Shown: positions 9,191 to 43,744 of the stretch, piece after piece
How positions within the stretch are numbered: position 1 is the stretch's first letter
Layout: every line of letters starts with the position of its first letter
Assembly (NCBI GenBank): GCA_026399835.1
Contig: JAPLQE010000067.1
Span: 1-64,000, forward strand
Reading direction: 5' to 3'
From: Burkholderiales bacterium
GTDB taxonomy: Bacteria; Pseudomonadota; Gammaproteobacteria; Burkholderiales; Burkholderiaceae_E
DNA length: 64,000 nucleotides
Translations under genes and position numbers: made by a program
The notes under the pieces: generated by a model
Databases searched by the model: none
The model's input: the letters and a program-made list of their open reading frames with translations, nothing else
Told to the model about the DNA's origin: nothing

Positions 9191-9745
9191 ATGGACCGAC
9201 GCACGCTGCTCGGCGCGATGCTCGCCGCCCCCCTCGTTCCCGCCGCCCGCCCCGCCGCGGCGCAGACCGACCTGGACGTGCCCTTCGTCACCACGCCGCA
9301 GAACGTGGTCGACGCGATGCTCGAGCTCGGCGGGGTCGGGCCGGGCGACACGCTCATCGACCTCGGCTCCGGCGACGGACGCATCGTGCTGACCGCGGCG
9401 AAGCGGTGGCGCACGAAGGGCGTCGGCTACGAGATCGACCCGCGCCTGGTGTCCGACGCGCAGCGCGTCGCGCGCCGCGAGGGCCTCGACCATCTCGCCC
9501 GCTTCGTCGTCGAGGACATCTTCATCGCCGACCTGTCCGCCGCGACCGTCATCACGATGTACCTGCTGCCGGACGTGAACCTGCGCCTGCTGCCGCGCCT
9601 GCGCCTGCTTCGGCCGGGGACCCGCCTGGTCTCGCACGACTGGGACATGGGCGACTGGGCGCCGCAGCGCACCGTCGAGGTCGATGCGCCCGAGAAGCGC
9701 GTCGGCCTGAAGAAGACCAGCCGCCTGATGCTCTGGACGGTCTGA
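9191..9745 (+). CDS. Signal-peptide-bearing class I SAM methyltransferase (FAM173/ATPSCKMT-like)
   Basis: 184-residue protein. The N-terminus DRRTLLGAMLAAPLVPAA ending in AAAQ looks like a Tat- or Sec-type export signal. It is followed by the segment FVTTPQNVVDAMLELGGV and the SAM-binding motif DLGSGDGRI (about residues 57-65), then a YEIDP acidic loop and DWDMGDW near the end. The TTPQNVVDAM plus DLGSGDGR pattern is that of a bacterial family related to eukaryotic FAM173 lysine methyltransferases (family knowledge). Export of a SAM-dependent enzyme would be odd because SAM is cytoplasmic, so the hydrophobic N-terminus may instead be a membrane anchor. Substrate unknown. Confidence 0.75.
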   Translation: MDRRTLLGAMLAAPLVPAARPAAAQTDLDVPFVTTPQNVVDAMLELGGVGPGDTLIDLGSGDGRIVLTAAKRWRTKGVGYEIDPRLVSDAQRVARREGLDHLARFVVEDIFIADLSAATVITMYLLPDVNLRLLPRLRLLRPGTRLVSHDWDMGDWAPQRTVEVDAPEKRVGLKKTSRLMLWTV

Positions 9746-10397: not shown

Positions 10398-11351
10398 GTG
10401 CTGACGGCAGCCGTCGCGCTCCTCGTGCTGTGGCAGCGACTGCTCGTGCCGGTGCTGCTCGGACTCGTCGTCTATGCCTGGACCTGCCTGCTCGCCGACC
10501 GGATGTCGAACCGGTTCGGCCCGTCGCGGATGGTCGCCGGCGTCTGCGGCGCGGTGGTCGGCTCGCTGGTGTTCGCGGCCTTCGCCGGCATCGTCACCTG
10601 GACGGTCGCGCTCGCCTCGGCCGACGACCTGCGGGTCTTCCTGCTGCGCATCGAGGACTCGCTCGACGCATTCCGAGAGGCGCTGCCCGAGGCCATGGCC
10701 GCCTCGATGCCGCAGGACCTCGTCGAGCTGCGCACGCGGGTGTTCTCCTGGCTGCGAGACCATGCGGCGAGCCTCGGCGGGCTGGGAGGCAAGGTCGCCC
10801 ACGCGCTGGTGCAGGGCATCTTCGCGATCCTGGTCGCAGCGATGGCCGCCGCCGCGACCTGGCAGCCGCGCGCGCTGCAGTCCGAGGAGAAGTTCATCGG
10901 GCGGCTGCTGCTGGTGCTCGAGCGCGTCGTGCTCGCGCAGATGCGCATCGCGCTGTTCAACACCTCGGCGACTGCGCTCTACCTGTTCGTGATCCTGCCG
11001 GCCTTCGGATTCGTCCTGCCCTTCCGCGGGCTGCTGTGCCTGTTCACGCTGGTGACCGGGGTGCTGCCCGTGCTCGGCAACCTGCTGGCCAACACGCTGG
11101 TGACGCTGATCTCGCTGGCGGTGTCGCCGCTGCTGGCGATCGGCTCGCTGGTCTTCCTGGTGCTGATCCACAAGACCGAGTACTTCATCAACGCCCGCAC
11201 CGTGGGCTCGCACGTGCGCGTGGCCTCATGGGAGATCCTCGCCGCGATGCTCACCGGCGAGGCGCTGTTCGGCGTGCAGGGGCTGGTGGCCGCGCCGCTG
11301 CTCTACCCGTTCTTCAAGCGCGAGATCGCCCGCCTGCGCGGGCAGGACTGA
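10398..11351 (+). CDS. AI-2E family (TqsA/YdiK/PerM) membrane transporter
   Basis: 317-residue polytopic membrane protein, GTG start. It has an N-terminal pair of helices, a soluble segment (about 80-140), then further helices with the family pattern GVLPVLGNLLANTLVTL and FINARTVGSHVRVASWEI. The end GLVAAPLLYPFFKREI is typical of AI-2E proteins. The frame is open back to about 10326 but holds no ATG; a CGGAG patch lies 12 nt before the GTG. Members export or exchange diverse solutes, and AI-2 itself is not implied. It is convergent with the LpxR-like gene. Confidence 0.8.
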   Translation: MLTAAVALLVLWQRLLVPVLLGLVVYAWTCLLADRMSNRFGPSRMVAGVCGAVVGSLVFAAFAGIVTWTVALASADDLRVFLLRIEDSLDAFREALPEAMAASMPQDLVELRTRVFSWLRDHAASLGGLGGKVAHALVQGIFAILVAAMAAAATWQPRALQSEEKFIGRLLLVLERVVLAQMRIALFNTSATALYLFVILPAFGFVLPFRGLLCLFTLVTGVLPVLGNLLANTLVTLISLAVSPLLAIGSLVFLVLIHKTEYFINARTVGSHVRVASWEILAAMLTGEALFGVQGLVAAPLLYPFFKREIARLRGQD

Positions 11352-22231: not shown

Positions 22232-24199
22232 GTGACCCACGTCCCGTACCCGCTGCTGACCCGGCTGCTGGCGCCGCACGCGCTCGCCCCGGACGAGTCG
22301 CCGCCCGATGCCGTGCGCTGGCAGTCGCTGCTGGCCACGCTCGAGCGCGACCTCGGCCGGCTGCAGCTCGAGCTCGAGGACTCCCGCCGGGCCTACCGCT
22401 ACGCGGCCGACGCGCTGACCCGCGCGACGCTGCGGCTGCGCGACCAGCGCGACGACCTGGAGATGCGCGTCGACGAACGCACCTCGCAGCTCGAGCAGAG
22501 CCGGACCGACCTGATGCAGGCCCAGCGGCTGGCTGGCCTGGGCAGCTGGTCGCTGCGCGTCGGCGACGACCGCATCGACGTCTCCGAGCCGTTCGCGCGG
22601 CGGCTCGGCATGGATCCGGACGCACCGCCCGCGGGCATCGAGGCGCTGCTCGACTACGTGCTGGAGGACGACCGCGAGACGGCGAACCGCGCGGTGCAGG
22701 CCGCGCTGCGGGCACCCGGGCGCTACAGCGGCGAGCTGCGTGTGCGCGACGCCCGCGGCGAGGTCCGCTGGTTCTCGGCCACGATCGCCTCGCAGGCCGA
22801 TGCCGAGGGGGGCGTCTCGCAGCTGCACGGCGCGATGCTCGACGTGACCGCACGCCGCCTCGCCGAGCTGCGCGTGCAGCGCCAGGCCCTGCTGGACGAG
22901 CTCACCGGGCTGCCCAACCGCACCGCGTTCAAGCAGGACCTCGCGCAGGCCGTCGAGGGCGCGCACGTGCGCCGCTCGCGCTTCGCGCTGCTGTTCCTCG
23001 ACCTCGACGGCTTCAAGGAGATCAACGACTCGCTCGGGCACGATGCCGGCGACGAGCTGCTGCAGCAGGTCGGGACGCGGATCCGCAAGTGCCTGCGCAA
23101 GGGCGATCGCCTCGCGCGCTTCGGCGGCGACGAGTTCCTGGTGCTGATCGATCCGGTGCGCCGCCGCCGTGACGTCGAGACCGTGACCCGCAAGATCCTC
23201 GAGGCAGTGGCCACGCCGCTGCCGCTCGACGGCATGATGGCCACCGTCAGCGCGAGCATCGGCATCGCGATGTTCCCGGAGGACGGCGACGACCCACGTC
23301 GGCTGCTGAAGAACGCCGACGCCGCGATGTACCAGGCCAAGCAGGACGGCCGCAATGCGCTGCGCTTCTATGCGCCGCGGATCAACGCGTCGCTGCGCGA
23401 GAAGGTCGCGATGGTCAACGACCTGCGCGCCGCGGTCGCACGCGGCGGGCTCGGCGTCGCCTACCAGCCGATCGTCGACGGCCGCGACGGCCGGGTGCTC
23501 GGCGTCGAGGCGCTCGCACGCTGGGACGACCCCAAGCGCGGCGCGGTCGGCCCCGGGGTCTTCGTGCCGCTGGCCGAGGAGACCGGACTGATCGGCGCAG
23601 TCGGCGCGCAGGTGCTCGCCCGCTCGTGCGCACAGCAGGTCGACTGGGACCGACGGCGCGACGACGCCAGCACCGAGGCCTACCTGTCGGTGAACGTCTC
23701 CCCGGTGCAGCTGCGCGACGGCGACTTCGTGCGCGAGCTGCGCGTGCTGCTCGCGGACACCGGCCTGCCGGCCTCGCGGCTGCAGCTCGAGCTCACCGAG
23801 GGGACGGTGATGGCCGACCCCGCGGGGGCCGCGCGCGTGCTCGGCGAGCTTGCGGCGATGGGGGTGCGGATCGCGCTCGACGACTTCGGCACCGGGCATT
23901 CGTCGCTCGCCTACCTGCGCACCTTCCCGATCCACTGCATCAAGATCGACCGGGCCTTCGTCGGCGACCTCGGGCGTTCAGGCAGCGGCAACCAGGCGGC
24001 CATCGTGCCGGCGATCGTCGCGATCGCGCGCAGCCTCGGGGCCGAAGTGGTCGCCGAAGGCGTCGAGACCGATGCGCAGCGCGAGGCGCTGCTCGCGCTC
24101 GGTTGCCGCGCGATGCAGGGCTACCTGTTCTCGCGGCCCTTGCCGGCGGACGAGTGCGGCGCGCGTTTCCTGGTGCCGAGCTCCGAAACCGCCGGCTGA
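22232..24199 (+). CDS. PAS-GGDEF-EAL cyclic-di-GMP signalling protein
   Basis: 655 residues from GTG 22232. An N-terminal coiled coil (about 30-100) leads into a PAS domain (about 105-215), GGDEF (about 215-385) and EAL (about 395-650). The cyclase site is intact (RFGGDEF) with an inhibitory-site RKGD five residues before GGDEF. The phosphodiesterase site is also intact: GVEALARW, ELTEG, LDDFGTGHSSL, VVAEGVET and MQGYLFSRPL. Both activities are therefore possible; which dominates cannot be told. No transmembrane segment, so probably cytoplasmic. A 7-codon frame (ATG 22212) ends in TGA overlapping the GTG. Its 3' end overlaps the convergent HNH gene by 79 bp. Confidence 0.9.
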   Translation: MTHVPYPLLTRLLAPHALAPDESPPDAVRWQSLLATLERDLGRLQLELEDSRRAYRYAADALTRATLRLRDQRDDLEMRVDERTSQLEQSRTDLMQAQRLAGLGSWSLRVGDDRIDVSEPFARRLGMDPDAPPAGIEALLDYVLEDDRETANRAVQAALRAPGRYSGELRVRDARGEVRWFSATIASQADAEGGVSQLHGAMLDVTARRLAELRVQRQALLDELTGLPNRTAFKQDLAQAVEGAHVRRSRFALLFLDLDGFKEINDSLGHDAGDELLQQVGTRIRKCLRKGDRLARFGGDEFLVLIDPVRRRRDVETVTRKILEAVATPLPLDGMMATVSASIGIAMFPEDGDDPRRLLKNADAAMYQAKQDGRNALRFYAPRINASLREKVAMVNDLRAAVARGGLGVAYQPIVDGRDGRVLGVEALARWDDPKRGAVGPGVFVPLAEETGLIGAVGAQVLARSCAQQVDWDRRRDDASTEAYLSVNVSPVQLRDGDFVRELRVLLADTGLPASRLQLELTEGTVMADPAGAARVLGELAAMGVRIALDDFGTGHSSLAYLRTFPIHCIKIDRAFVGDLGRSGSGNQAAIVPAIVAIARSLGAEVVAEGVETDAQREALLALGCRAMQGYLFSRPLPADECGARFLVPSSETAG

Positions 24200-31611: not shown

Positions 31612-32388
31612 TCAGAACTTGGTGTAGCCGCCGTCGATCACGAACTGCTCGCCCGTGTGGTACGCCGACGCGTCGCTCGCGAGGTAGACGGCGATGCCGC
31701 CGAAGTCGTCGATCTCGCCCCAGCGGCGGGCGGGGATGCGCGGCATCACCGCGTCGGCGAACTTCGGATTGTTGACCGAGCGCTCGGTCATGTCGGTGAC
31801 GATCCAGCCGGGCAGGATCGAGTTGACACGGACCCGGTGCCGGGCGAGCTCGACCGACAGCGCGCGAACGAAGGACGTGACCGCGCCCTTGGAGGCGCCG
31901 TAGTGGCTGTTGCGGGCCGCGCCCTCGATGGCCGCGGTGCTGGCGGTGGCCACCAGCGAGCCGCCCTGCCCGCGCTCGGCCATGTGGCGCGCCGCCGCAC
32001 GGAAGGTCAGGAACACGCCCTCGACGTTGACGCGCTGCACGCGGCGGAACTCCTCGAGGCTCATGTCGGTCATCAGCGTGCCCTTGGAGGAGACGCCCGC
32101 GTTGGCGAAGCAGGCATCGACATGGCCGAGGGCGGCGACGGTCGCGGCGAAGGCCGACTCGACCTGGGCCTCGTCGCCGACGTCGCACACGAAGGCGTGC
32201 ACCCGCGAGCCGTCAGGCGCCTCGGCGGCCAGCGAAGCCTTGGCCTTGGCGGTCTTCTCGGGGTTGGAGCCCCAGATGGCGACCGAGGCGCCCGAGGCGA
32301 GCAGCGCGCGCGCCATGCCGAGGCCGATGCCGCCGTTGCCACCGGTGACGAGTGCGGTGCGGCCGGTGAGGTCGAAGGGGGTGTACAT
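31612..32388 (-). CDS. SDR family oxidoreductase
   Basis: 258-residue classical SDR: TGGNGGIG at about 16-23, NAG near 93-95, YGASKGA (Tyr-x-x-x-Lys) near 160-165, and C-terminal YHTGEQFVIDGGYTKF. GAGGAG about 9 nt before the ATG at 32388. Divergent from the TetR gene across a 353-bp gap containing a palindromic site, so it may share that regulator. Substrate unknown. Confidence 0.88.
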   Translation of the reverse strand: MYTPFDLTGRTALVTGGNGGIGLGMARALLASGASVAIWGSNPEKTAKAKASLAAEAPDGSRVHAFVCDVGDEAQVESAFAATVAALGHVDACFANAGVSSKGTLMTDMSLEEFRRVQRVNVEGVFLTFRAAARHMAERGQGGSLVATASTAAIEGAARNSHYGASKGAVTSFVRALSVELARHRVRVNSILPGWIVTDMTERSVNNPKFADAVMPRIPARRWGEIDDFGGIAVYLASDASAYHTGEQFVIDGGYTKF

Positions 32389-32741
32389 GGGTGGGGTCTC
32401 CTCGGGGCGCCGGGCCGGGCCGGTCGTGGCATGGCATGAGGTCGGATGCTGCCGATGATACCGGCCCGCGGCGCGGCGCCCGCGACCTGCCCGCGCCCGC
32501 CATTCCGCCTTCGGACGGCACGGCCGCGCCACCCCGGACGGGCTGCTAGGATCGATCGGCCACCGCCCGTTGCAGAACCGCTCCGGCATCGGCCCCCGGC
32601 TTGCGCCCTTCCCACCGAGCGCATCGAGCCCGGCATCCGCGAGCTCGCCCGGGCCTTCGCCGAGGCCGACGACCTGCGTGATATCGTCGATCGACGACAT
32701 CGGAACGGTCCCGCGTCCCGCACCGAGGAGATCCCCGACGC
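32389..32741. other. 353-bp divergent regulatory region between the SDR and TetR genes
   Basis: No credible gene. A minus-strand TATCAT hexamer (32455-32460, 5/6 to consensus) lies 66 nt before the SDR start, a plus-strand TAGGAT is near 32547, and the palindrome at 32681-32700 is described separately. Confidence 0.5.
32681..32700. promoter_or_regulatory. Palindromic operator 1 (upstream of the TetR gene)
   Basis: ATATCGTCGATCGACGACAT is a dyad with 9 of 10 base pairs matching, ending 41 nt before the TetR start. It shares 15 of 20 positions with the perfect palindrome at 33474-33493, including the outer TATCGTC / GACGA arms. The pairing of one site ahead of the regulator and one ahead of the next operon is typical of autoregulated local repressors. 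Confidence 0.65.
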
Positions 32742-33443
32742 ATGAAAGCGAAGACCGACGCGCCGGCCAAGCGCGCGCCCGCCACGGCCCCGGCGCCCCG
32801 AGCCCGCACGCGAGCCGCGCCCATGCAGCGCCTCCCACGCCACGAGCGCCGCGAGCAGATCCTCGCCAAGGCCTACCAGCACTTCTCCGAGCACGGCCTG
32901 AACGCGCAGACCCGCGCACTCGCCGAGTCCTGCGGCGTCTCGCAGCGCCTGCTCTACAGCTTCTTCCCGAGCAAGGCGGCGCTGATCGACGAGGTGTACC
33001 GCAGCGAGATCGCCGGCTCCTTCAAGGCGATCTGGTTCGTCGAGTTGCAGGACCGGTCGATCCCGGTCGAGGCGCGGCTGGTGCGCTTCTACACCGACTA
33101 TTTCCAGACCGTCACGACCCGCCGCTGGCTGCGCCTGTTCCTTCACGCATCGCTCGACGACGTCGCGATGGCGCCGGCCTACATCGCGACGATCGTCACC
33201 CACATGCTGGCCATCGTCGTCGCCGAGGCGGCGCAGGAGCGGGGGCTGCGCGCGCCCGCCGACGCCGCCCGCGTGCAGGAGATCGGCTGGGTGCTGCACG
33301 GCGCGATCTCGCACCTGGCGATCCGTCGCCACGTCTATGGCAACGCCAATCCGATGCCCGCCGAAGAGGTGATCGCGCTGCAGGTCCGCGTCTTCCTCGC
33401 CGGGCTCGACGTGGTCCTGCCCGCCGCACCACGACGGCGCTGA
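32742..33443 (+). CDS. TetR/AcrR family transcriptional regulator
   Basis: 233 residues. A basic, Ala/Pro-rich extension of about 30 residues precedes the HTH domain (RREQILAKAYQHFSEHGLNAQTRALAESCGVSQRLLYSFFPSKAALIDEVY, about 36-86). The helical ligand-binding part follows (about 95-220). GAGGAG lies upstream of the ATG at 32742. It directly precedes the importer/Mo-hydroxylase operon, and both promoters carry the same palindrome, so it probably represses that operon and itself, released by a substrate or metabolite (inference). Confidence 0.88.
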   Translation: MKAKTDAPAKRAPATAPAPRARTRAAPMQRLPRHERREQILAKAYQHFSEHGLNAQTRALAESCGVSQRLLYSFFPSKAALIDEVYRSEIAGSFKAIWFVELQDRSIPVEARLVRFYTDYFQTVTTRRWLRLFLHASLDDVAMAPAYIATIVTHMLAIVVAEAAQERGLRAPADAARVQEIGWVLHGAISHLAIRRHVYGNANPMPAEEVIALQVRVFLAGLDVVLPAAPRRR

Positions 33444-33473
33444 GCGCTCGCCGGCGCATCTCGGCGGAGCGCT

Positions 33474-33493
33474 TTATCGTCAATTGACGATAA
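33474..33493. promoter_or_regulatory. Palindromic operator 2 (overlaps -35 of the ABC/Mo-hydroxylase operon)
   Basis: TTATCGTCAATTGACGATAA is a perfect 20-bp palindrome. Its right half contains the TTGACG taken as the -35 box, so a bound dimer would block RNA polymerase. It is markedly AT-richer than its surroundings and matches operator 1 at 15 of 20 positions. Confidence 0.75.
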
Positions 33494-33513
33494 GCAGGAA
33501 ACGGGCGGATACT
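33484..33513 (+). promoter_or_regulatory. Sigma-70-type promoter of the ABC/Mo-hydroxylase operon
   Basis: TTGACG (33484-33489, 5/6 to consensus), an 18-nt spacer and GATACT (33508-33513, 4/6). A transcript would start near 33520, leaving about 70 nt of leader before the ATG at 33593. The -35 box lies inside the palindrome. Confidence 0.5.
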
Positions 33514-33592: not shown

Positions 33593-34912
33593 ATGAGCGA
33601 CATGAAGGCACCTTTCGCGGGCCGCCGCGAGTTCCTGGCCGCGGCCGGCGCTGCCGGCGCCGGACTGATGCTGCCGCCGGGCACCGCCTCGGCATCCGAC
33701 ACCATCAACTTCTTCACCTGGTCGGCGGGCGTCGACCAGGTCAAGAGCCACCTTTCGGCGTTCGAGAAGAAGACCGGCCTGAAGGTCGTCTACAACAACG
33801 CCCCCTGGGCCCAGTACCGCGACACGATGGTCACCAAGTTCGTCGGCAGCGCGCCGATCGACATGCTGTGGGTGTCCGACAGCTGGCTGCCCGAGTGGGC
33901 CGAGGCGGGCTGGATCGCCCCGATCGACGGCTACGCCGACCTGATGCGCTACAACTCGGACGTCGACGACTTCTGCACGCAGTCGGTCCGGTACAAGGGC
34001 AAGCAGTACGGCATGACGTACTACAGCGACTACATGGCCTTCTTCAACGACGAGGCCAAGCTGAAGAAGGCGGGCATCTCAGCCGCGCCGCGCACCTGGG
34101 ACGAAGTGGTCCAGCAGTCGCTCGCGATCAAGAAGGCCGGCATCGCCGAGTACCCGCTGATGCTGTCGATGGCCCGCGAGAGCTGGCTGATCGAGTTCAT
34201 GTCGGCGCTGGTGTTCTCGAACGGCGGACGGTTCGTCGACGACGCCGGCAACGCGGTGATGGCCGACCCGGACAAGGGCGCGGTCAAGGCGCTGCAGTGG
34301 GTGGTGGACGCAGTCAACAAGCACAAGATCGTGTCGCCCGCGACGGTCGAGGTCGGCGAGCTGAACGGCCTGAAGGCCTTCACCTCGGGCAACCATGCGT
34401 TCGCGCTGCTCGCGCGCTACCGCGTGCGCACGCTCAACGACCCCAAGCAGTCGCAGATCGCCGGCAACGCCAGGCAGTCGCTGATGCCCGCCGGCCCCGG
34501 CGGCAGCAACGCGACGGTCGGCTGGATGCGCTTCTACGGGATGACCGCCCAGGCCGCGGCCGACAAGGCCCGCGCCGCCAACGCAGCCAAGCTGATGGAG
34601 TGGTTCGGCGGCAAGGCCGACGGCCAGTACACGTTCCAGAAGATGATCTTCACCGACATCGGCACCGGCTTCGGCGTGAAGTCGCTGTTCAAGGACCCGG
34701 ACGTGCGCGCGTCGTACGCCCAGTACTCGGACATCACGATGTTCGAGCGCCAGCAGCAGTTCGCCCGCAAGAAGGACGTCGTCTCGCGTTGGTTCGGCGA
34801 GTGGGACGAGATCAACGGCACGGCCTGGCAGGCGGCGATCCTCGGCAAGTCGTCGGTGGCCGACGCGCTGAAGAAGTCGTCGCAGGCCTGGATGGACCTG
34901 AAGAAGTCCTGA
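33593..34912 (+). CDS. ABC transporter solute-binding protein (family 1, CUT1-type)
   Basis: 439-residue periplasmic receptor. The N-terminus has a twin-arginine signal (GRREFLAAAGAAGAGLML, about 10-27). The mature part begins DTINFFTWSAGVDQVKSH and shows family 1 sugar-binding-protein features (WAQYRDTMVTKFVGSAPIDMLWVSDSWLPEWAEAGWIAPID; TWDEVVQQSLAIKKAG). Lys-rich C-terminus. It has the two MalF/MalG-type permeases and the MsmX-type ATPase just downstream. Many such receptors bind sugars, polyols or glycerophosphodiesters. The ligand here is unknown, but the co-transcribed Mo-hydroxylase hints at a non-sugar or aldehyde-yielding compound. Confidence 0.9.
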   Translation: MSDMKAPFAGRREFLAAAGAAGAGLMLPPGTASASDTINFFTWSAGVDQVKSHLSAFEKKTGLKVVYNNAPWAQYRDTMVTKFVGSAPIDMLWVSDSWLPEWAEAGWIAPIDGYADLMRYNSDVDDFCTQSVRYKGKQYGMTYYSDYMAFFNDEAKLKKAGISAAPRTWDEVVQQSLAIKKAGIAEYPLMLSMARESWLIEFMSALVFSNGGRFVDDAGNAVMADPDKGAVKALQWVVDAVNKHKIVSPATVEVGELNGLKAFTSGNHAFALLARYRVRTLNDPKQSQIAGNARQSLMPAGPGGSNATVGWMRFYGMTAQAAADKARAANAAKLMEWFGGKADGQYTFQKMIFTDIGTGFGVKSLFKDPDVRASYAQYSDITMFERQQQFARKKDVVSRWFGEWDEINGTAWQAAILGKSSVADALKKSSQAWMDLKKS

Positions 34913-34984
34913 GCCCGGCCAGGGGTCGGGCACGGCGCCGCGAAGCGTCCTGCCCGGCCTCGCCGCCGCGCCCGTCCCCACACC

Positions 34985-35896
34985 GTGATCCGACTCCGCC
35001 CGAGCGCTGCGCTGCGCTTCCCCGTCAGCGCCTACGACCAGCGCAGCGCGATGCTGTTCCTGCTGCCGATGATGGTCGTGCTCGCGGTCGTCGCGGTGTT
35101 CCCGGTCGTCTATTCGTTCTGGACGAGCCTGTTCGACCTGAAGCTCACGCGGCCCAACCGCGTGCCCTTCGTCGGGTTCGGCAACTACTCGAAGATCTTC
35201 CAGGACGTGCAGTTCTGGGAGTCCGCCGCGCGCACGGCCTGGTTCACCGTGATGTCGGTATCGGCGATCATGGTGATCGCCACGCTGATGGCGCTGCTGC
35301 TCAACGAGGAGTTCCCTGGCCGGCGCGTCCTGTCGGCGATGCTGCTGGTGCCCTGGGCGATCCCGTACGTGGCCAACGGCCTGATGTGGAAGTGGATCTA
35401 CGACTCGGGCTACGGCGCGCTGAACGGCCTGCTCTACCAGCTCGACTTCATCGACCGCTACATGGTGTGGCTGGGCGATGCCGACAAGACCCTCGCGCTG
35501 ATCGCCAACGCCTTCGTGTGGAAGGAGGCGCCGCTGGCCACCATCCTGCTGCTGGTCACGATGAAGTCGATCCCGTCGGACCTGTACTCGGCGGCCAAGG
35601 TCGACGGCGCGAACGTGTGGCGCCGCTTCCTGCATGTGACGCTGCCCTCGCTGCGCCCCGGCTTCATGCTGGTCATCGTCTACGAGACGATGATGGCGGT
35701 CCGGCACTTCGACCTGTTCTTCATCCTCACCGAGGGCGGCCCGGCCGAGGCCTCGCACGTGCTGGCCTGGCAGGTCTACGTCGAGACCTTCCGCAAGCTC
35801 TCCTTCGGCACGGGCTCGGCGCTCGCGTACGTGATGGCGCTGGTGACCTTCGTGCTCGCCTGGTCGGTCATCCGGACTGTCGGGCGCAAGCTGTGA
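34985..35896 (+). CDS. ABC permease, MalF type
   Basis: 303 residues, GTG start, six hydrophobic segments. The EAA loop that docks the ATPase is visible as SAAKVDGANVWRRFLHVTLPSLRP. The N-terminal helix LFLLPMMVVLAVVAVFPVVYSFWTSLFDL is typical of CUT1 MalF-like subunits. Second gene of the importer, 72 nt after the receptor gene. Confidence 0.9.
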   Translation: MIRLRPSAALRFPVSAYDQRSAMLFLLPMMVVLAVVAVFPVVYSFWTSLFDLKLTRPNRVPFVGFGNYSKIFQDVQFWESAARTAWFTVMSVSAIMVIATLMALLLNEEFPGRRVLSAMLLVPWAIPYVANGLMWKWIYDSGYGALNGLLYQLDFIDRYMVWLGDADKTLALIANAFVWKEAPLATILLLVTMKSIPSDLYSAAKVDGANVWRRFLHVTLPSLRPGFMLVIVYETMMAVRHFDLFFILTEGGPAEASHVLAWQVYVETFRKLSFGTGSALAYVMALVTFVLAWSVIRTVGRKL

Positions 35897-35929
35897 TCGA
35901 CCCGCGCACCCCGGCCGGGAGCCGCTGAC

Positions 35930-36835
35930 GTGACCGCGCGACGCCTCGTCCGCCCGCTGTTCCTCGCCGTCGCGTCGGTGGTGTTCCTCGCCTACGTGCT
36001 GTCGCCCATCTTCTGGCTGGTGTCCTCGTCGTTCCAGTCCGAGGCCGAGATCACCTCCAAGCCGCCGCACTGGCTGCCGCACGAGCCCACCACCGAGAAC
36101 TTCCGCGCGATCTTCCAGGCCGACCGCGAGGTCACCTACGAGACGCGCCGTCAGGGCGACACCGCCACCGGCGGCTACATCCCGTCGACCGCGAAGAACC
36201 TGCTGCCCTCGATGTGGAACAGCCTGCTGGTCGCGGTCGCGGTGGTGGTGCTGAACCTGCTGGTCGCCGTGCCCGCGGCCTATGCGATGGCCAAGATCCG
36301 CTACGTCGGCCGCTCGGCGTCGATCTACCTGATGCTCACCACGCGGGTGATCCCGGACATCGCGCTGGTGGTGCCGTTCTTCCTGTTCATCCGCAAGCTG
36401 GGGCTGCTCGACAGCCTGTCGTCGCTGGTGATCACGTACCTCGCGATCACCGTGCCGTTCAGCATCTTCATCCTGGTCGGCTACTTCGAGTCGCTGCCCG
36501 ACGAGCTCGACAAGGCGGCGCGCGTCGACGGCTGCTCGCGGCTGCAGACACTGCTGCGCGTCTACCTGCCGCTGTCGCTGCCCTCGCTGGTGGCGGTGGT
36601 GCTGTTCTCCTTCCTCACCAGCTGGAACGAGTTCCTGCTGGCACTGATGTTCACGCAGACCGCGGCGTCCCAGACCATGCCGATCGTCGTCGCCTCGTTC
36701 ACCTCCGACTTCACGATCAGCTTCTCGTTCATCAACGCGGCCGGGGTGCTCGCGATCGTCCCGCCGGTGATCCTCGCCATCCTGTTCGAGCGCTACATCG
36801 TCTCCGGCCTGACCGCCGGCGCGGTGAAGGGCTGA
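35930..36835 (+). CDS. ABC permease, MalG type
   Basis: 301 residues, GTG start. Six hydrophobic segments with EAA loop DKAARVDGCSRLQTLLRVYLPLSLP. Typical MalG pattern FWLVSSSFQSEAEI near the N-terminus and SWNEFLLALMFT. A polar insertion (about 60-85, GDTATGGYIP) precedes the second helix. Pairs with the MalF-type subunit. Confidence 0.9.
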   Translation: MTARRLVRPLFLAVASVVFLAYVLSPIFWLVSSSFQSEAEITSKPPHWLPHEPTTENFRAIFQADREVTYETRRQGDTATGGYIPSTAKNLLPSMWNSLLVAVAVVVLNLLVAVPAAYAMAKIRYVGRSASIYLMLTTRVIPDIALVVPFFLFIRKLGLLDSLSSLVITYLAITVPFSIFILVGYFESLPDELDKAARVDGCSRLQTLLRVYLPLSLPSLVAVVLFSFLTSWNEFLLALMFTQTAASQTMPIVVASFTSDFTISFSFINAAGVLAIVPPVILAILFERYIVSGLTAGAVKG

Positions 36836-36846
36836 AGGAACCCCTC

Positions 36847-37959
36847 GTGGCACGCATCCGGTTCGAGCGCGTCAGCAAGCGCTATCCCAACGGCTTCGTC
36901 GCCCTCGCCGACCTCGACCTCGACATCGCCGACCGCGAGTTCCTGGTGCTGCTCGGCCCCTCGGGCTGCGGCAAGTCGACGACGCTGAACATGATCGCGG
37001 GCCTGGAGGAGATCTCCTCGGGCGAGCTGCGCTTCGACGACACGGTGGTCAACGACGTGCCGCCGCACCGGCGCGACGTGGCGATGGTCTTCCAGAGCTA
37101 CGCGCTGTATCCGCACAAGTCGGTCTACGAGAACATCGCCTTCGGGCTGCGCATGCGCCGCCACGACGCCGCCGAGATCGACCGCCGCGTGCGCGACGCC
37201 GCCCGCAAGCTCGAGATCGAGCCGCTGCTCGAGCGCCGTCCGAACCAGCTGTCGGGCGGGCAGCGCCAGCGCGTGGCGCTCGGGCGCGCGATGGTCCGCC
37301 AGCCGCAGGCCTTCCTGATGGACGAGCCGCTGTCGAACCTCGACGCGGCGCTGCGCATCTCCACGCGCGCCGAGATCAAGCAGCTGCACCAGGCGATGCA
37401 GACCACCTTCGTCTACGTGACCCACGACCAGGCCGAGGCACTGACGCTGGCCGACCGCATCGTCGTGATGCGCGAGGGCGTGGTGCAGCAGATCGGATCG
37501 CCCGACGAGATCTACGAGGCGCCGCGCAACACCTTCGTCGCGTCCTTCCTCGGCAACCCGCCGATCAACTTCCTCGAGGGCACGGTCGCGGTGGTCGACG
37601 GGCGTGCGGTGTTCACGCGCGGCGACATCGTCCTCGCGCTGCCCGACCGGTTCCTGCCCGCCGTGCGCGCGCAGGCGTCGCGGGAGGTGGTGCTAGGCCT
37701 GCGGGCCGAGGACGTGCTCGAGGAGGCCGGCGCCGACACGCGGCTGCTGCACGGGCGCGTGTCCTCGGTGCTGCCGGTGGGCTCCGACCAGTTCCTCGGC
37801 ATCCAGACCTCCGGCGGCCTGGTGTTCCTGCGGGTCGGCAAGGACCGCCGCCACCGCGAGGGCGATGCCGTCGCCGTGCCGGTGAACACCGGGCGCCTGC
37901 ACCTCTTCGACAAGGCCGGCGGCGCGTCGCTGCGCGACGGGCCGGTCGCGGCCGCATGA
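36847..37959 (+). CDS. ABC transporter ATP-binding protein (UgpC/MalK/MsmX type)
   Basis: 370 residues, GTG start 11 nt after the permease stop. Walker A GPSGCGKST (about 38-46), Q-loop FQSY, signature LSGGQRQR, Walker B FLMDEPLSNLD, switch His in VTHDQ. The C-terminal third is the TOBE/OB-fold regulatory domain (FLEGTVAVVDGRAVF to VNTGRLHLFD) of CUT1 ATPases. Stop overlaps the next gene by ATGA, tying transport to the hydroxylase genes. Confidence 0.92.
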   Translation: MARIRFERVSKRYPNGFVALADLDLDIADREFLVLLGPSGCGKSTTLNMIAGLEEISSGELRFDDTVVNDVPPHRRDVAMVFQSYALYPHKSVYENIAFGLRMRRHDAAEIDRRVRDAARKLEIEPLLERRPNQLSGGQRQRVALGRAMVRQPQAFLMDEPLSNLDAALRISTRAEIKQLHQAMQTTFVYVTHDQAEALTLADRIVVMREGVVQQIGSPDEIYEAPRNTFVASFLGNPPINFLEGTVAVVDGRAVFTRGDIVLALPDRFLPAVRAQASREVVLGLRAEDVLEEAGADTRLLHGRVSSVLPVGSDQFLGIQTSGGLVFLRVGKDRRHREGDAVAVPVNTGRLHLFDKAGGASLRDGPVAAA

Positions 37960-38836
37960 AGCCGGGCGCCTTCGCCTACCGCCGTCCGGCCTCGCTCGAC
38001 GAGGCGCTCGCGCTGCTCGCGGCGCACGGCGATGCGGCGAAGCCGATCGCCGGCGGCCAGAGCCTCGTGCCGATGATGAACCTGCGCGTGGCGCAGCCCG
38101 AGCTGCTGGTCGACGTGGCCGGGCTGCCCGGGCTCGACGGCATCCTGGACCTGGGCGATGCGGTCGAGGTCGGCGCGCTCGCGCGCCACCAGTCGATCGC
38201 CGACGCGCCGCTGGTGCGCGCGCGCTGCCCGCTGCTGGCCGAGGCCGCGGCCTGCATCGGCCACTACGCGATCCGCCAGCGCGGCACGCTGGGCGGCAGC
38301 CTGGCGCACGCCGACCCGGCGGCGCAGCTGCCGCTGGTGGCGGTGACGCTCGACGCGACCATCGTCGTCCAGGGACCGGGCGGGCGGCGCGAAGTGCCGG
38401 CGGGCGAGTTCTTCGTGTCGATCATGACCACCACGCTCGCTGCCGACGAGCTGATCGTCGCGGCGCGTTTCCCGGCCTCGGGGCCGGGCTCGGGCGCGGC
38501 GTTCCGGCTGTTCAACCGGCGCCACGGCGACTACGCGATCGTGTCGGCGGCGACCCGCGTCGTGCTGGATGCGGCGGGCGCCGTTGCGCGGCTCGACCTC
38601 GGCGTGGGCGCGGTCGAGGCGGTGCCGGTGGCATTCGCCGCGCTGGCCGCGACCCAGCACGGCCGGATGCCCGACGCGGCCTGGATCGACGAGGTGGCCG
38701 CGGCCGCACGCGATGCGGTCGATGCGCAGGACGACAGCCGCGCCACCGCGCTCTACCGCCGCGAGCTGACCGGCACGCTGGTGGCGCGCGCGCTCGCCGC
38801 GTCGCTCGAGCACGCCCGCACCGGGGCCGCTCGGCG

Positions 38837-38840
<4 letters not shown>
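37956..38840 (+). CDS. Molybdenum hydroxylase FAD subunit (CoxM/CutM-like)
   Basis: 294-residue medium subunit of a xanthine-oxidase-family enzyme. FAD-binding blocks PIAGGQSLVPMMNLR (about 30-44) and TLGGSLAHADPAAQLP (about 108-123) are intact, followed by the CO_deh_flav C-terminal domain. Overlaps the ABC ATPase and the Fe-S subunit gene by ATGA on each side. Transfers electrons from the Fe-S clusters to FAD and on to an acceptor. Confidence 0.92.
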
Positions 38841-39335
<495 letters not shown>

Positions 39336-39349
<14 letters not shown>

Positions 39350-41750
39350 GGACCGCTGGATCGGCCGCGCCGTGCCCCGCAAGGAGGACCGGCGCTTCCT
39401 GATCGGCGCCGGCCGCTACCTCGACGACATCGAGGTGCCGGGCGCGCTGCATGCGCATTTCGTGCGCTCGCCGCACGCCCATGCGCGCATCCTGTCGATC
39501 GATGCCGACGCGGCCCGCGCGATGGCCGGCGTGGTCGCGATCGTCACCGGCCGCGAGCTCGCCGAGTGGACGACGCGCCACCGGATGGCACCCGCGATCG
39601 ACGGCCTGCACCCGGTCGAGATGGACACGCTGCCGATCGCGCGGGTGCGCTTCCACGGCGACCCGGTGGCCTGCGTGATCGCCTCGGACCGGTATCTCGC
39701 CGAGGACGCGGCCGAGCGGGTGGAGATCGACTGGGAGGTGCTCGAGGCGGTGACCGACATGCACCGCGCGCTCGAGCCGGATGCGCCCCTCGTCGACGAG
39801 ACGCTCGCCTCGAACCTGGTGTCGCATCAGCACGACGCCTTCGGCGACGTCGACGCGCGGATGCGCGGCGCGCACCGGATCGTCGAGGCCCGCTTCTCGC
39901 AGCACCGCCAGACCCACCTGCCGATCGAGACGCGCGGCTGCATCGCGGTCTGGGACGAGGGGCGCGAGCACCTGACGTTCCACGTCGGCAACCAGGTGCC
40001 GCACCCGTACCGCACGCAGCTCGCCGCGCGGCTGCGGCTGGGCGAGTCGCAGGTGACCGTGATCTCGCCCGACGTCGGCGGCGGCTTCGGCCAGAAGATC
40101 ACGCTGTACCGCGAGGAGCTCGCGGTCGCGGCGATCGCGCGCGCGCTGCGCCGGCCGGTGCGCTGGCGCGAGGACCGCGTGGAGAACCTGTCGGCCTCCA
40201 CGCAGTCGCGCGAGGACACCTGCCGCACCCGTGCCGCGGTCGACGCCGAGGGCCGCGTGCTGGCGCTCGAGCTCGAGATCCTCGAGGACTTCGGCGCGTA
40301 CTGCTTCTATCCGGGCAACTACCTCGCCCGCGTGGTCGCGATGATCGTGACCGGCCCGTACCGCGTGCAGGACTACCGCTACGACGTGCGCGTCGTGCTG
40401 ACGAACAAGGTCGGCAACGCGCCGATGCGCGCGCCGATGGCCATCACCAGCTGGGTGATGGACGGCACGCTCGACGCGGTCGCGCGCGCGCTCGCGCTCG
40501 ATCCGATGCAGGTGCGGCGCGTGAACATGATCGAGGCCTCGGAGCTGCCCTACCGGATGCCGACCGGCGAGGTGCTGCGCGACGTGACGCCGCGCCGCAC
40601 CTTCGAAGCCGCGCTCGACGGCATCGGCCACGACGCGTTCCGCCGCCGGCAGCACGAGGCGCGCGCGCAGGGCCGCCTGCTCGGGCTCGGCGTGTGCAAC
40701 GTCGTCGAGTCCACCACCTACGGCTCGGCCTTCTACAAGTCGGCCGGCATCCCCGGCTCGGGGCACGAGGCCGGCTGGCTGCGGATCGAACCGAGCGGCG
40801 CGATCAACGTGTCGGTCGGGCTGGGCGCGACCGGCCAGGGCTACGAGACCGCGTTCGCGCAGGTCGTCGCCGACGGGCTGGGCGTCGTGCCCTCGGCGGT
40901 CCACCTGCACCTCGGGCACACCGACGTCGCGCCCTACGGCATGGGCAGCCGCGGGGCACGCGGCGGCACCGCCGGCGGCAGCGTGCTGTGGCTGTGCGCG
41001 CGCGACGCTCGGGCCCGCGTGCTGGCGATCGCGGCACACCGTCTGGGGCTCGCCGATGCCGCGTCGCTGCGGCTGCTCGGCGGGCGCATCGAGCGCCAGG
41101 AGGCCGGCAGCGAGACGGATCGGCGCACCGACGCGAGCGATGCTGCCTGGACCGACACCGGCCTGGGGCTGGCCGACGTCGCGCGCATCGCCTACCTCGA
41201 TCCGACCGCGCTGCCCCCGGGCGTGCCGCCGGGGCTCGACTTCAGCCGGACCTACGATCCGCCGCCGATGACCTACTCGAACGCGACGCACGCCTGCGAG
41301 GTGGAGATCGACCCGGCCACCGGCGGGCTGCGGATCCTGCGCTACCTGGTCGCCGAGGACTGCGGCACCGTGATGAGCCCGGTGGTGGTCGAGGGCCAGC
41401 AGCACGGCGCGATCGCGATGGGCCTGTCGGGCGCGCTGTTCGAGGAGGTGGTCTACGACGACAGCGGACAGAACCTTACCGGTCTGCTCTCCGACTATCT
41501 GGTCGCGACCGCGGCCGAGCTGCCCGAGTTCGAGCTGCTGCCGATGCACACGCCGAGCCTCGGCACGCCGGTCGGCATCAAGGGCATGGCCGAGGGCGGC
41601 GTGATGGGTGCGATCGGCGCGCTCGCCGGCGCGATCAACGACGCGCTGGCGCCGCTCGGCGTGGTGGCCGAGCGCCAGCCGTTCACCCCGATGGCGCTGC
41701 GCGACCTGATCCGCGCGGGGCAGCACACGACGAAGGACGCCGAAGGATGA
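39336..41750 (+). CDS. Molybdenum hydroxylase large subunit (Mo-pterin binding)
   Basis: 804-residue catalytic subunit of the xanthine oxidase family. Begins [26 protein letters not shown], has the Mo-pterin motif GGGFGQK, a second glutamine-type loop GATGQGYET, and the catalytic Glu in [14 protein letters not shown] near the C-terminus. The CO-dehydrogenase loop AYRCSFR is replaced by [10 protein letters not shown], so this is not a form I CO dehydrogenase. It probably hydroxylates an aldehyde or N-heterocycle. Substrate must be related to what the adjoining importer takes up. Overlaps the next gene by ATGA. Confidence 0.92.
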
Positions 41751-42667
41751 GCGGCAGCACGAACGACACCACCCGCGACACCCCCCTGGCCGCCGAGGGC
41801 GTCCTCGACGTGGGCTTCATCGGCCTGGGCATCATGGGCCGCCACATGGCCGGCCACCTGCAGCGCGCCGGACACCGGCTGCACGTCTACAACCGCTCGC
41901 GCGGCAGCGCCGACGCGCTGGTGGCCGCCGGCGCCACCTGGCACGACACGCCGGCCTCGCTGGCCGCGGCCTGCGCCGTCGTGATCACCATCGTCGGCTA
42001 CCCGGCCGACGTCGAGGCGCTGTACCTCGGCGAGGGCGCGATCGTCGCGAGCGCCGCGCCCGGTTCGGTGCTGATCGACATGACCACCTCGAGCCCGGCG
42101 CTCGCGCTGCGGATCGCAGAGGCCGCCGCCGCGCGCGGTGTGCACGCGCTCGACGCCCCGGTCTCCGGCGGCGACGTCGGCGCACGCGACGCGGCGCTGT
42201 CGATCATGGTCGGCGGCACCGAGGTCGCCTTCGAGCGGGCCGCGCCGCTGCTCGCCCTCATGGGGCGCAGCGTGCTGCGCCAGGGCGGCCCGGGCAGCGG
42301 CCAGCACACCAAGCTCGCCAACCAGATCGTCATCGCGTCGACGATGGTCGGCGTCTGCGAGGGCCTGGCCTACGCGCGCCGCGCGGGCCTCGATCCGCAG
42401 GCGGTGCTCGGCTCGATCTCGGGCGGTGCGGCGGGCGGCTTCCTGCTGTCGAACATGGGGCCGCGGATGCTGCGCGGCGACTTCGCCGCGGGCTTCTTCA
42501 CGGAGCATTTCGTGAAGGACCTGGGCATCGCGGTGGCCGAGGCGACGCGCATGGCGCTGGACCTGCCGGGGCTCGGGCTTGCCAAGCGGCTCTACGACGA
42601 GCTGGCGGCGGCGGGGTTTGCGCGCGAGGGCACGCAGGCGCTGTTCAGGCTGTACGCGGACCGCTGA
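41747..42667 (+). CDS. NAD(P)-dependent beta-hydroxyacid dehydrogenase (3-hydroxyisobutyrate dehydrogenase-like)
   Basis: 306 residues. Rossmann motif GFIGLGIMGRHMAGHL (about 22-37), substrate loop DAPVSGGDVGAR, catalytic Lys in GSGQHTKLANQ, and the C-terminal helical domain with FVKDLGIA. Family includes 3-hydroxyisobutyrate, tartronate-semialdehyde and succinic-semialdehyde reductases. Last gene of the operon, coupled by ATGA to the Mo-hydroxylase. It may process the hydroxyacid or semialdehyde produced from the imported compound. Convergent with the Bug gene 18 nt away. Confidence 0.9.
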   Translation: MSGSTNDTTRDTPLAAEGVLDVGFIGLGIMGRHMAGHLQRAGHRLHVYNRSRGSADALVAAGATWHDTPASLAAACAVVITIVGYPADVEALYLGEGAIVASAAPGSVLIDMTTSSPALALRIAEAAAARGVHALDAPVSGGDVGARDAALSIMVGGTEVAFERAAPLLALMGRSVLRQGGPGSGQHTKLANQIVIASTMVGVCEGLAYARRAGLDPQAVLGSISGGAAGGFLLSNMGPRMLRGDFAAGFFTEHFVKDLGIAVAEATRMALDLPGLGLAKRLYDELAAAGFAREGTQALFRLYADR

Positions 42668-42685: not shown

Positions 42686-43744
42686 TCAACCGTCCAGCCT
42701 GATCCCCGCCGCCTTCACCACCCTCGCGTTGCGCTCCACCTCGGACGCGAGGAACGCCGTCGCCTCTTCCGCATTGCCCGAGCCCGGCACGATGCCGGTG
42801 CTCTCCAGCCGCGCACGCACCTCCGGCGACTCCAGGATCTTGCGGATCTCCGCGTTCAGCCGCTGCACCAGTTCGCGCGGCATCTTCGCGGGCGCCAGCA
42901 CCATCGACCAGGTGTTCGCCGAGAAGGGCACGCCGCCCTCGGCCATGGTCGCCATGTCCGGGTAGCCCGCGAGCCGCCTGTCGTTCGCGATGCCGAGCGA
43001 GCGGATGCGCCCCGCACGCGCCTGCGGCACCAGCGACAGCGGCGTGTCGAACATCAGCTGGATCTGGCCGCCGCCCAGGTCCGTCAGCGCCGGCTGCGTG
43101 CCCTTGTACGGGACGTGCTGCATCTTCAGCCCGTGCTGCGCCATGAACTGCTCCATCGCGAGGTGGGCCGCCGCACCCTGCCCGCTCGAGCCGAAGTTGA
43201 ACTGGCCGGGACGCGCGCGCACGTACTCGACGAGCTCCGCCGCGGTCGTCGGCGGGAAGCCCGGGTGCGCGCACAGGATGAGCGGCGCGATGCCGGTCAG
43301 CGCGATCGGCACCACGTCGGCCTGCGCATCGAAGGCCATCTTCGGATAGAGCGAGGGATTCGCCGAGTGCGCGGCGATGACGGTCGTGAGCGTGTAGCCG
43401 TCGGGCGCCGACTTCACCAGCATCTCGGTGCCGATCATGCTGTTGGCGCCGGGCTTGTAGTCGAACACCACCGGCTGGCCGAGCGCCCGGCCCAGCGGCT
43501 CGCCGACGGTGCGCGCCATGTTGTCGGTGAAGCCGCCGGGCGTGTAGCCGACGATCATGCGGATGGGCTTGTTCGGCCAGCCCGCGGGCTGGGCGCGCAC
43601 GCGCGGCGAGGCCGCGAGCAGCGCGGCGGCCGGCAGCGCGACAGCGAGCGCGCGCCGGGTGCTCGAGGCCGGCCGCGCGGCGGACGGCGAAGTGGCGGAT
43701 GCAGTGGCGGACGCGGCGGCGTCCTGCGGACGGAATCGGGCCAT
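42686..43744 (-). CDS. Bug/TctC family tripartite-tricarboxylate solute receptor
   Basis: 352 residues. GAGGAG 8 nt before the ATG at 43744. A 30-residue polar Ala/Ser-rich n-region precedes STRRALAVALPAAALLAASP ending VRAQ, a long twin-arginine-like signal. Mature part has the Bug landmarks IRMIVGYTPGGFTDNMAR, GANSMIGTEMLVKS, HVPYKGTQPALTDLGGGQIQLMFD. No membrane TctAB genes nearby; probably an orphan receptor or one using a distant TTT transporter. It sits tail-to-tail with the importer/Mo-hydroxylase operon. Confidence 0.9.
   Translation of the reverse strand: MARFRPQDAAASATASATSPSAARPASSTRRALAVALPAAALLAASPRVRAQPAGWPNKPIRMIVGYTPGGFTDNMARTVGEPLGRALGQPVVFDYKPGANSMIGTEMLVKSAPDGYTLTTVIAAHSANPSLYPKMAFDAQADVVPIALTGIAPLILCAHPGFPPTTAAELVEYVRARPGQFNFGSSGQGAAAHLAMEQFMAQHGLKMQHVPYKGTQPALTDLGGGQIQLMFDTPLSLVPQARAGRIRSLGIANDRRLAGYPDMATMAEGGVPFSANTWSMVLAPAKMPRELVQRLNAEIRKILESPEVRARLESTGIVPGSGNAEEATAFLASEVERNARVVKAAGIRLDG

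Follow-up and report, generated by a model that had tools for sequence, protein, structure and literature searches.

The window, the 64-kb stretch of DNA analysed here, carries at 32742–33443 (plus strand) the gene for a 233-aa TetR-family regulator with an N-terminal TetR_N helix-turn-helix domain (PF00440, 44.5 bits; cut-off 24) and the recognition-helix segment SQRLLY. None of 11 NCBIfam models for named TetR equivalogs, including FasR, SlmA, MftR, RutR, BetI and KstR, reached its cut-off with this protein, the best score being that for FasR (35.9 bits; cut-off 330). The AlphaFold model of the regulator is helical and poor, with a mean pLDDT of 61.6 and values below 50 in the helix-turn-helix region.

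A run of genes, all on the plus strand, extends from 33593 to 42667, and we infer that it is transcribed as a single unit. The first gene (33593–34912) encodes an extracellular solute-binding protein (SBP_bac_1; PF01547, 102 bits), the nearest solved chains of which are maltose-type binding proteins. It is followed by genes for two importer permeases (BPD_transp_1; 34985–35896 and 35930–36835) and an importer ATPase of the UgpC subfamily (36847–37959; NF008653, 436.6 bits, above the cut-off of 432). The next three genes encode the FAD subunit (CoxM-like; PF00941 and PF03450; 37956–38840), the [2Fe-2S] subunit (CoxS-like; PF01799 and PF00111; 38837–39349) and the molybdopterin subunit (39336–41750) of a Mo-hydroxylase. 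The last gene (41747–42667) is for a 3-hydroxyacid dehydrogenase that resembles 2-hydroxy-3-oxopropionate reductase and scores below the cut-off of that model. The operon end abuts a convergent gene (42686–43744, minus strand) for a TctC-type periplasmic binding protein (PF03401).

The Mo-hydroxylase shares its three-subunit organisation and family with aerobic CO dehydrogenase (coxMSL, coxG), and a COXG-domain gene is present in several of the related loci. However, the Cys of the CO dehydrogenase large-subunit loop, which we take to be an active-site residue, is replaced by Ala (...yRCSFr... of 1n5w aligns with ...mRAPMa...), and the large subunit falls far below the NCBIfam cut-offs (538.8 versus 950, and 480 versus 991.15). 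Its nearest solved relative is quinoline 2-oxidoreductase (1t3q; E 1e-137); in contrast to that system, the importer here is of the sugar type (SBP_bac_1/UgpC kind).

The palindrome pair and the divergent neighbour

The sequence-only reading had proposed that two matching palindromes mark a local TetR regulon. Both are present: palindrome 1, ATATCGTCGATCGACGACAT, at 32681–32700 has nine of ten pairs intact and one broken, and palindrome 2, TTATCGTCAATTGACGATAA, at 33474–33493 is perfect (10/10 paired). Recounting gave the same agreement between them as first reported, identical letters at 15 of 20 positions, and the same gap of 41 nt between the end of palindrome 1 (32700) and the TetR ATG (32742). 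They are also AT-richer than their surroundings: their G+C contents are 0.45 and 0.30, and those of the 200-bp flanks 0.76 and 0.728. Palindromy by itself is not special, as the window contains two further perfect palindromes with arms that are longer and GC-rich. The consensus first put forward gave, with up to two mismatches, four strand-hits in the window, all of them at palindromes 1 and 2; 0.27 were expected, and four were reached in none of 100 shuffles. An exact TCGTCNATNGACGA occurs at three places in the assembly (4,954,742 bases, 93 contigs), two of which are the window pair, 800 bp apart. The third (on C61) lies inside the 3'-end overlap of two convergent open frames and is probably a chance match.

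The palindromes are described below as predicted operators, neither being assigned to a strand: operator 1 (32681–32700; core TCGTCGATCGACGA, 32684–32697) upstream of the TetR gene, and operator 2 (33474–33493; core TCGTCAATTGACGA, 33477–33490) upstream of the importer operon.

The gene divergent from TetR encodes an SDR-family oxidoreductase (31612–32388, minus strand), and its control by operator 1, which had also been suggested, is unsupported. About 290 nt separate operator 1 from the start codon of the SDR gene, the SDR strand gave no sigma70-like match between 32380 and 33640, and of the loci compared none but the window and the sister species G050 has the SDR gene at this position. A NIPSNAP gene, so named from PF07978 in G064 and from similarity elsewhere, is the divergent neighbour in five of the 12 other loci (G064, Rubrivivax, REEB372, Ciceribacter and G1404); hence, the counterpart of operator 1 may serve the divergent gene there. 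In several relatives the module comes with a NIPSNAP-domain gene, placed divergently from TetR or at the distal end of the operon (2207–2515 in L025, 25913–26230 in L073 and 5759–6061 in L084). Close relatives of the NIPSNAP and CoxG proteins of the G064 operon were not found in the window genome, where the best matches are 37% and 31% identical, respectively.

Conservation of the site with the TetR clade

Orthologues of the regulator are rare yet spread over Beta- and Alphaproteobacteria, and 12 were found besides that of the window, at 50–90% identity: the sister species G050 (90%), Rubrivivax MAG52 (69%), Burkholderia cenocepacia CMCC(B)23006 (60%), Burkholderiales REEB372 (59%), G064 (57%), Paraburkholderia FT54 (56%), Ciceribacter thiooxidans (52%), and G904, G854, G1008, G871 and G1404 (50–63%). 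The searches covered genome sets of 74, 399, 369, 299 and 349, together with genome contigs and plasmids; within each genome only a small number of preliminary candidates were scored, and some rare orthologues may thus have been missed. The plasmid search gave TetR matches in 59 records, from which the three with more than 50% identity were taken, the others among the matches listed being at most 38% identical. Importer operons were found in two plasmid records, both with the TetR gene.

In all 12 further orthologues the core TCGTC-N4-GACGA lies in the 250 bp that precede the TetR gene, with ten exact sites and two with one mismatch (FT54, L072; G904, L083). With the window included, the palindromic site at the regulator's own gene is thus present in 13 of 13 cases, 11 of them exact, a count that comes from sequence evidence only. 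Dinucleotide-shuffled upstream regions reached the observed score in 0–1 of 1000 trials for the exact sites and in 11 of 1000 for L072 and L083. The G050 site was located by scanning, since a MAFFT alignment of the window with G050 misplaced operator 1. Outside the clade, 18 related TetR genes (32–38% identity) could be scanned, and none of their upstream regions has a core that is exact or has a single mismatch; that of L088 has a site with two mismatches. This outgroup comprised 19 genes, L091 being dropped from the upstream scan with only 47 bp available; several are near-copies (L027, L028 and L031; also L015 and L017), so the 18 regions count as fewer independent cases. Two loci with 46-residue matches, L041 and L042, likewise gave no core with one mismatch or fewer and were left out of both the orthologue and the outgroup counts.

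An origin of the pair by chance or as an interspersed repeat would be conceivable from the core alone: an exact TCGTCNATNGACGA is present in 60 of 398 genomes of the order, about one in seven, so that a bare 14-mer is no proof in itself, and no TetR gene was seen beside it in the three such genomes examined (L044, L052 and L066). Against this stand the 800-bp spacing of two of only three matches in the window genome and the recurrence of the core at the same place in 12 of 12 other orthologues. The latter refutes the chance or repeat reading for the orthologue clade and leaves it a probability close to nil overall.

The site also goes with a change in the regulator itself. SQRLLY occupies the recognition-helix region in all 13 site-bearing regulators and in none of the 19 others, which lack the Arg, residue 69 of the regulator, and have TQPLLY, SQPLLY, THTLVY and similar segments. 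The 13 group together on one side of a branch with full support (100/100), in a tree that warns that long branches meet there. The SQRLLY change may be regarded as a lead on operator specificity, short of a test.

Since distant relatives have these sites in matching positions, the sites are predicted to be TetR operators. A different regulator could own them and co-regulate the TetR gene and the operon while TetR acts elsewhere: the assignment to TetR is made from DNA and protein sequence, and one of the 20 exact cores in the related loci lies upstream of a TonB-receptor gene about 9 kb from TetR (L072). This is improbable, since the core stays with the TetR clade in 12 further genomes, is not found beside related TetR genes, persists where the stretch examined has no importer (L083, L040) or a rearranged gene order (L025, L084), and is accompanied by the recognition-helix change. 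In G904 (L083), the TetR gene with its own site (9206–9219) has no importer or Mo-hydroxylase gene in the 20 kb examined and appears as an orphan regulator.

Operator position and the proposed switch

A single sigma70-like match, TTGACG-18-GATACT (33484–33513, plus strand), was found between 32380 and 33640 (mean of 0.1 in 50 shuffles). Its -35 box, TTGACG starting at 33484, lies inside palindrome 2, in agreement with the sequence-only reading. The same hexamers with the same spacing are present in G050, where the second site adds little because G050 is a close relative.

In all seven loci with a binding-protein gene, the window included, the core lies upstream of that gene, six cores being exact and that of G064 (L025) having one mismatch. 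The distances from the core end to the gene start are 102, 102, 102, 116, 96, 103 and 102 nt, that is, 102–103 nt in five of the seven and 102 nt in the window, and a beta- and an alphaproteobacterium share this spacing. The alphaproteobacterium, Ciceribacter, has both the operon and the site, and both of its cores are exactly TCGTCAATTGACGA. The gene-proximal half of the site is TTGACGA in seven of seven loci, which provides a possible -35 box TTGACG, and it belongs to the best-scoring promoter in six of them, as judged by a simple score with no shuffle control. G064 is the exception: there the operator sits between the two hexamers of a different best-scoring promoter. In G854 (L084), which has no importer gene in the stretch examined, the second site precedes the Mo-hydroxylase genes (CoxM).

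Thus, conservation at orthologues, on which the first interpretation had made its operator prediction depend, was found at 12 of 12 further TetR genes and at six of six further binding-protein genes. The palindromes are most probably (at roughly 85%, on sequence comparison) operators of the TetR protein encoded between them, which would repress its own gene and the importer/Mo-hydroxylase operon and be released by a ligand. A TetR dimer would bind TCGTCA-nn-TGACGA at both sites. At operator 2 it would cover the -35 box of the importer/Mo-hydroxylase promoter and block RNA polymerase, and at operator 1 it would lower the expression of TetR itself. A small molecule, probably the imported substrate or the hydroxylase product, would then release TetR, so that uptake and first oxidation would be switched on together.

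As to the autorepression and operon repression proposed from the sequence, the predicted operator pair stands, given the counts at TetR genes (12/12), binding-protein genes (6/6) and outgroup genes (0/18). We infer repression, rather than activation or mere binding, because of the position of the sites and the habits of the TetR family. TetR could instead bind the sites and activate, or only autoregulate, since TetR-family proteins that also activate exist (LuxR-type, in parts of PMC9736018) and the operator of L025 lies between the hexamers of the best-scoring promoter. This is unlikely, as in six of seven loci the operator covers the -35 box of that promoter, the usual place of a repressor.

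Palindrome 2 could also be read as an RNA hairpin, a terminator or attenuator of TetR, with palindrome 1 as a chance match, and both can indeed fold (-12 and -11.4 kcal/mol). However, the z-scores are only -1.55 and -0.14, no T run follows palindrome 2 and no terminator was called there. Furthermore, the operon site of L025 is not downstream of TetR, and letters are kept beyond mere pairing. Such a hairpin has very little probability.

Family motif, related systems and further sites

The symmetrised consensus of 28 sites is TCGTCA-nn-TGACGA with AT-rich flanks. The T, C, T and C of each arm do not vary, nor do the positions paired with them; 48 of 56 half-sites retain the inner A/T pair, and the two central columns carry 0.18 bit each. 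Of the consensus first proposed, the core arms therefore hold for the family, whereas the central AT, with near-zero information, and the outer TA, only partly kept over the 28 sites, are not part of it. Operator 2 matches the refined consensus exactly. In operator 1 the inner pair is G and C, which makes two mismatches to TCGTCANNTGACGA; about 60 places in the window genome belong to this class (up to two mismatches, 65 per strand versus 44 for a control pattern). Operator 1 would thus not stand out by the refined motif alone, and is retained because of its position and the exact core in relatives; it is probably the weaker site of the two. Besides the exact place at operator 2, the refined motif has four one-mismatch places in this genome (C61, C6, C42 and C21). 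That on C6 is near the beginning of an hslU-like frame and that on C42 is behind an hsp20-like frame, both named by eye, and none of the places on C61, C6 and C42 is convincing as a member of a wider regulon.

As a rule, regulators of the TetR family have palindromic operators both at their own gene and at the adjacent one, as far as parts of PMC4482099 and PMC9736018 describe it. The window system resembles TetR/tetO, MexZ, BkaR and PA3973 in its PF00440 helix-turn-helix and in a palindrome of about 14–20 bp upstream of the regulator and the neighbouring target, and as with TetR/tetO and other local repressors autoregulation is expected here too (same two sources, in part). It differs from TetR/tetO, MexZ, BkaR and PA3973 in operator sequence, target genes and C-terminal domain; the tetO and PA3973 operators, as given in parts of PMC9736018, are unlike TCGTCAnnTGACGA. 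The proteobacterial regulons of FabR, FadP, LiuQ, PsrA and RutR were reconstructed by comparative genomics, likewise from sites conserved beside orthologous genes. These regulators control fatty-acid, branched-chain amino-acid or pyrimidine metabolism, and none is described in the portions of PMC5343134 concerned as controlling an importer and Mo-hydroxylase operon. In the non-subscription papers searched, the exact string TCGTCAATTGACGA was not found, and none of those listed was recognisable from its title or the start of its abstract as treating this regulator.

The kind of system and its regulatory principle are ordinary. On balance, we lean towards an undescribed subfamily of TetR proteins in control of a catabolic module that is likewise undescribed. 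This module would consist of a sugar-type ABC importer, a CoxMSL-like Mo-hydroxylase and a hydroxyacid dehydrogenase, joined in relatives by CoxG-like and NIPSNAP genes. It would be sparse in Beta- and Alphaproteobacteria, with targets gained or lost (in L084 only CoxM, in L072 a TonB receptor) and the operator fixed. An orphan operon thereby becomes a testable regulon with an exact predicted operator. The compound that would release TetR from TCGTCAnnTGACGA is likely to be the importer substrate or the Mo-hydroxylase product, and so offers a handle on the substrate. The change in the recognition helix, which accompanies the site, provides a small case for how TetR proteins read DNA.

The 12 other loci (223,337 bases) contain 20 exact and 11 one-mismatch cores. 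Ten exact cores precede TetR, five the binding-protein gene and one the CoxM gene; the remainder lie between TetR and the next genes (two, L086), upstream of the TonB receptor (one, L072) and behind TetR (one, L087). Of the one-mismatch cores, seven lie close to those same promoters, and the other four (L073, 4737; L074, 17499; L083, 6389 and 9665) lie within the operon or at a distance from it.

In G871 (L086), two exact cores (10610–11075) stand before a mere CoxM fragment followed by other dehydrogenase-like genes, and the operon seems to have decayed or been replaced while the operators stay. The second exact core of G1404 (L087; 11300–11313) is directly behind TetR and faces a convergent gene, a position for which promoter control is no explanation. 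On the Paraburkholderia FT54 plasmid (L072), an exact and a one-mismatch core, at 23208–23221 and 23336–23349, lie upstream of the TonB-dependent receptor gene (PF00593; 23639), which is separated from TetR by about 9 kb with IS elements in between and is a possible further target.
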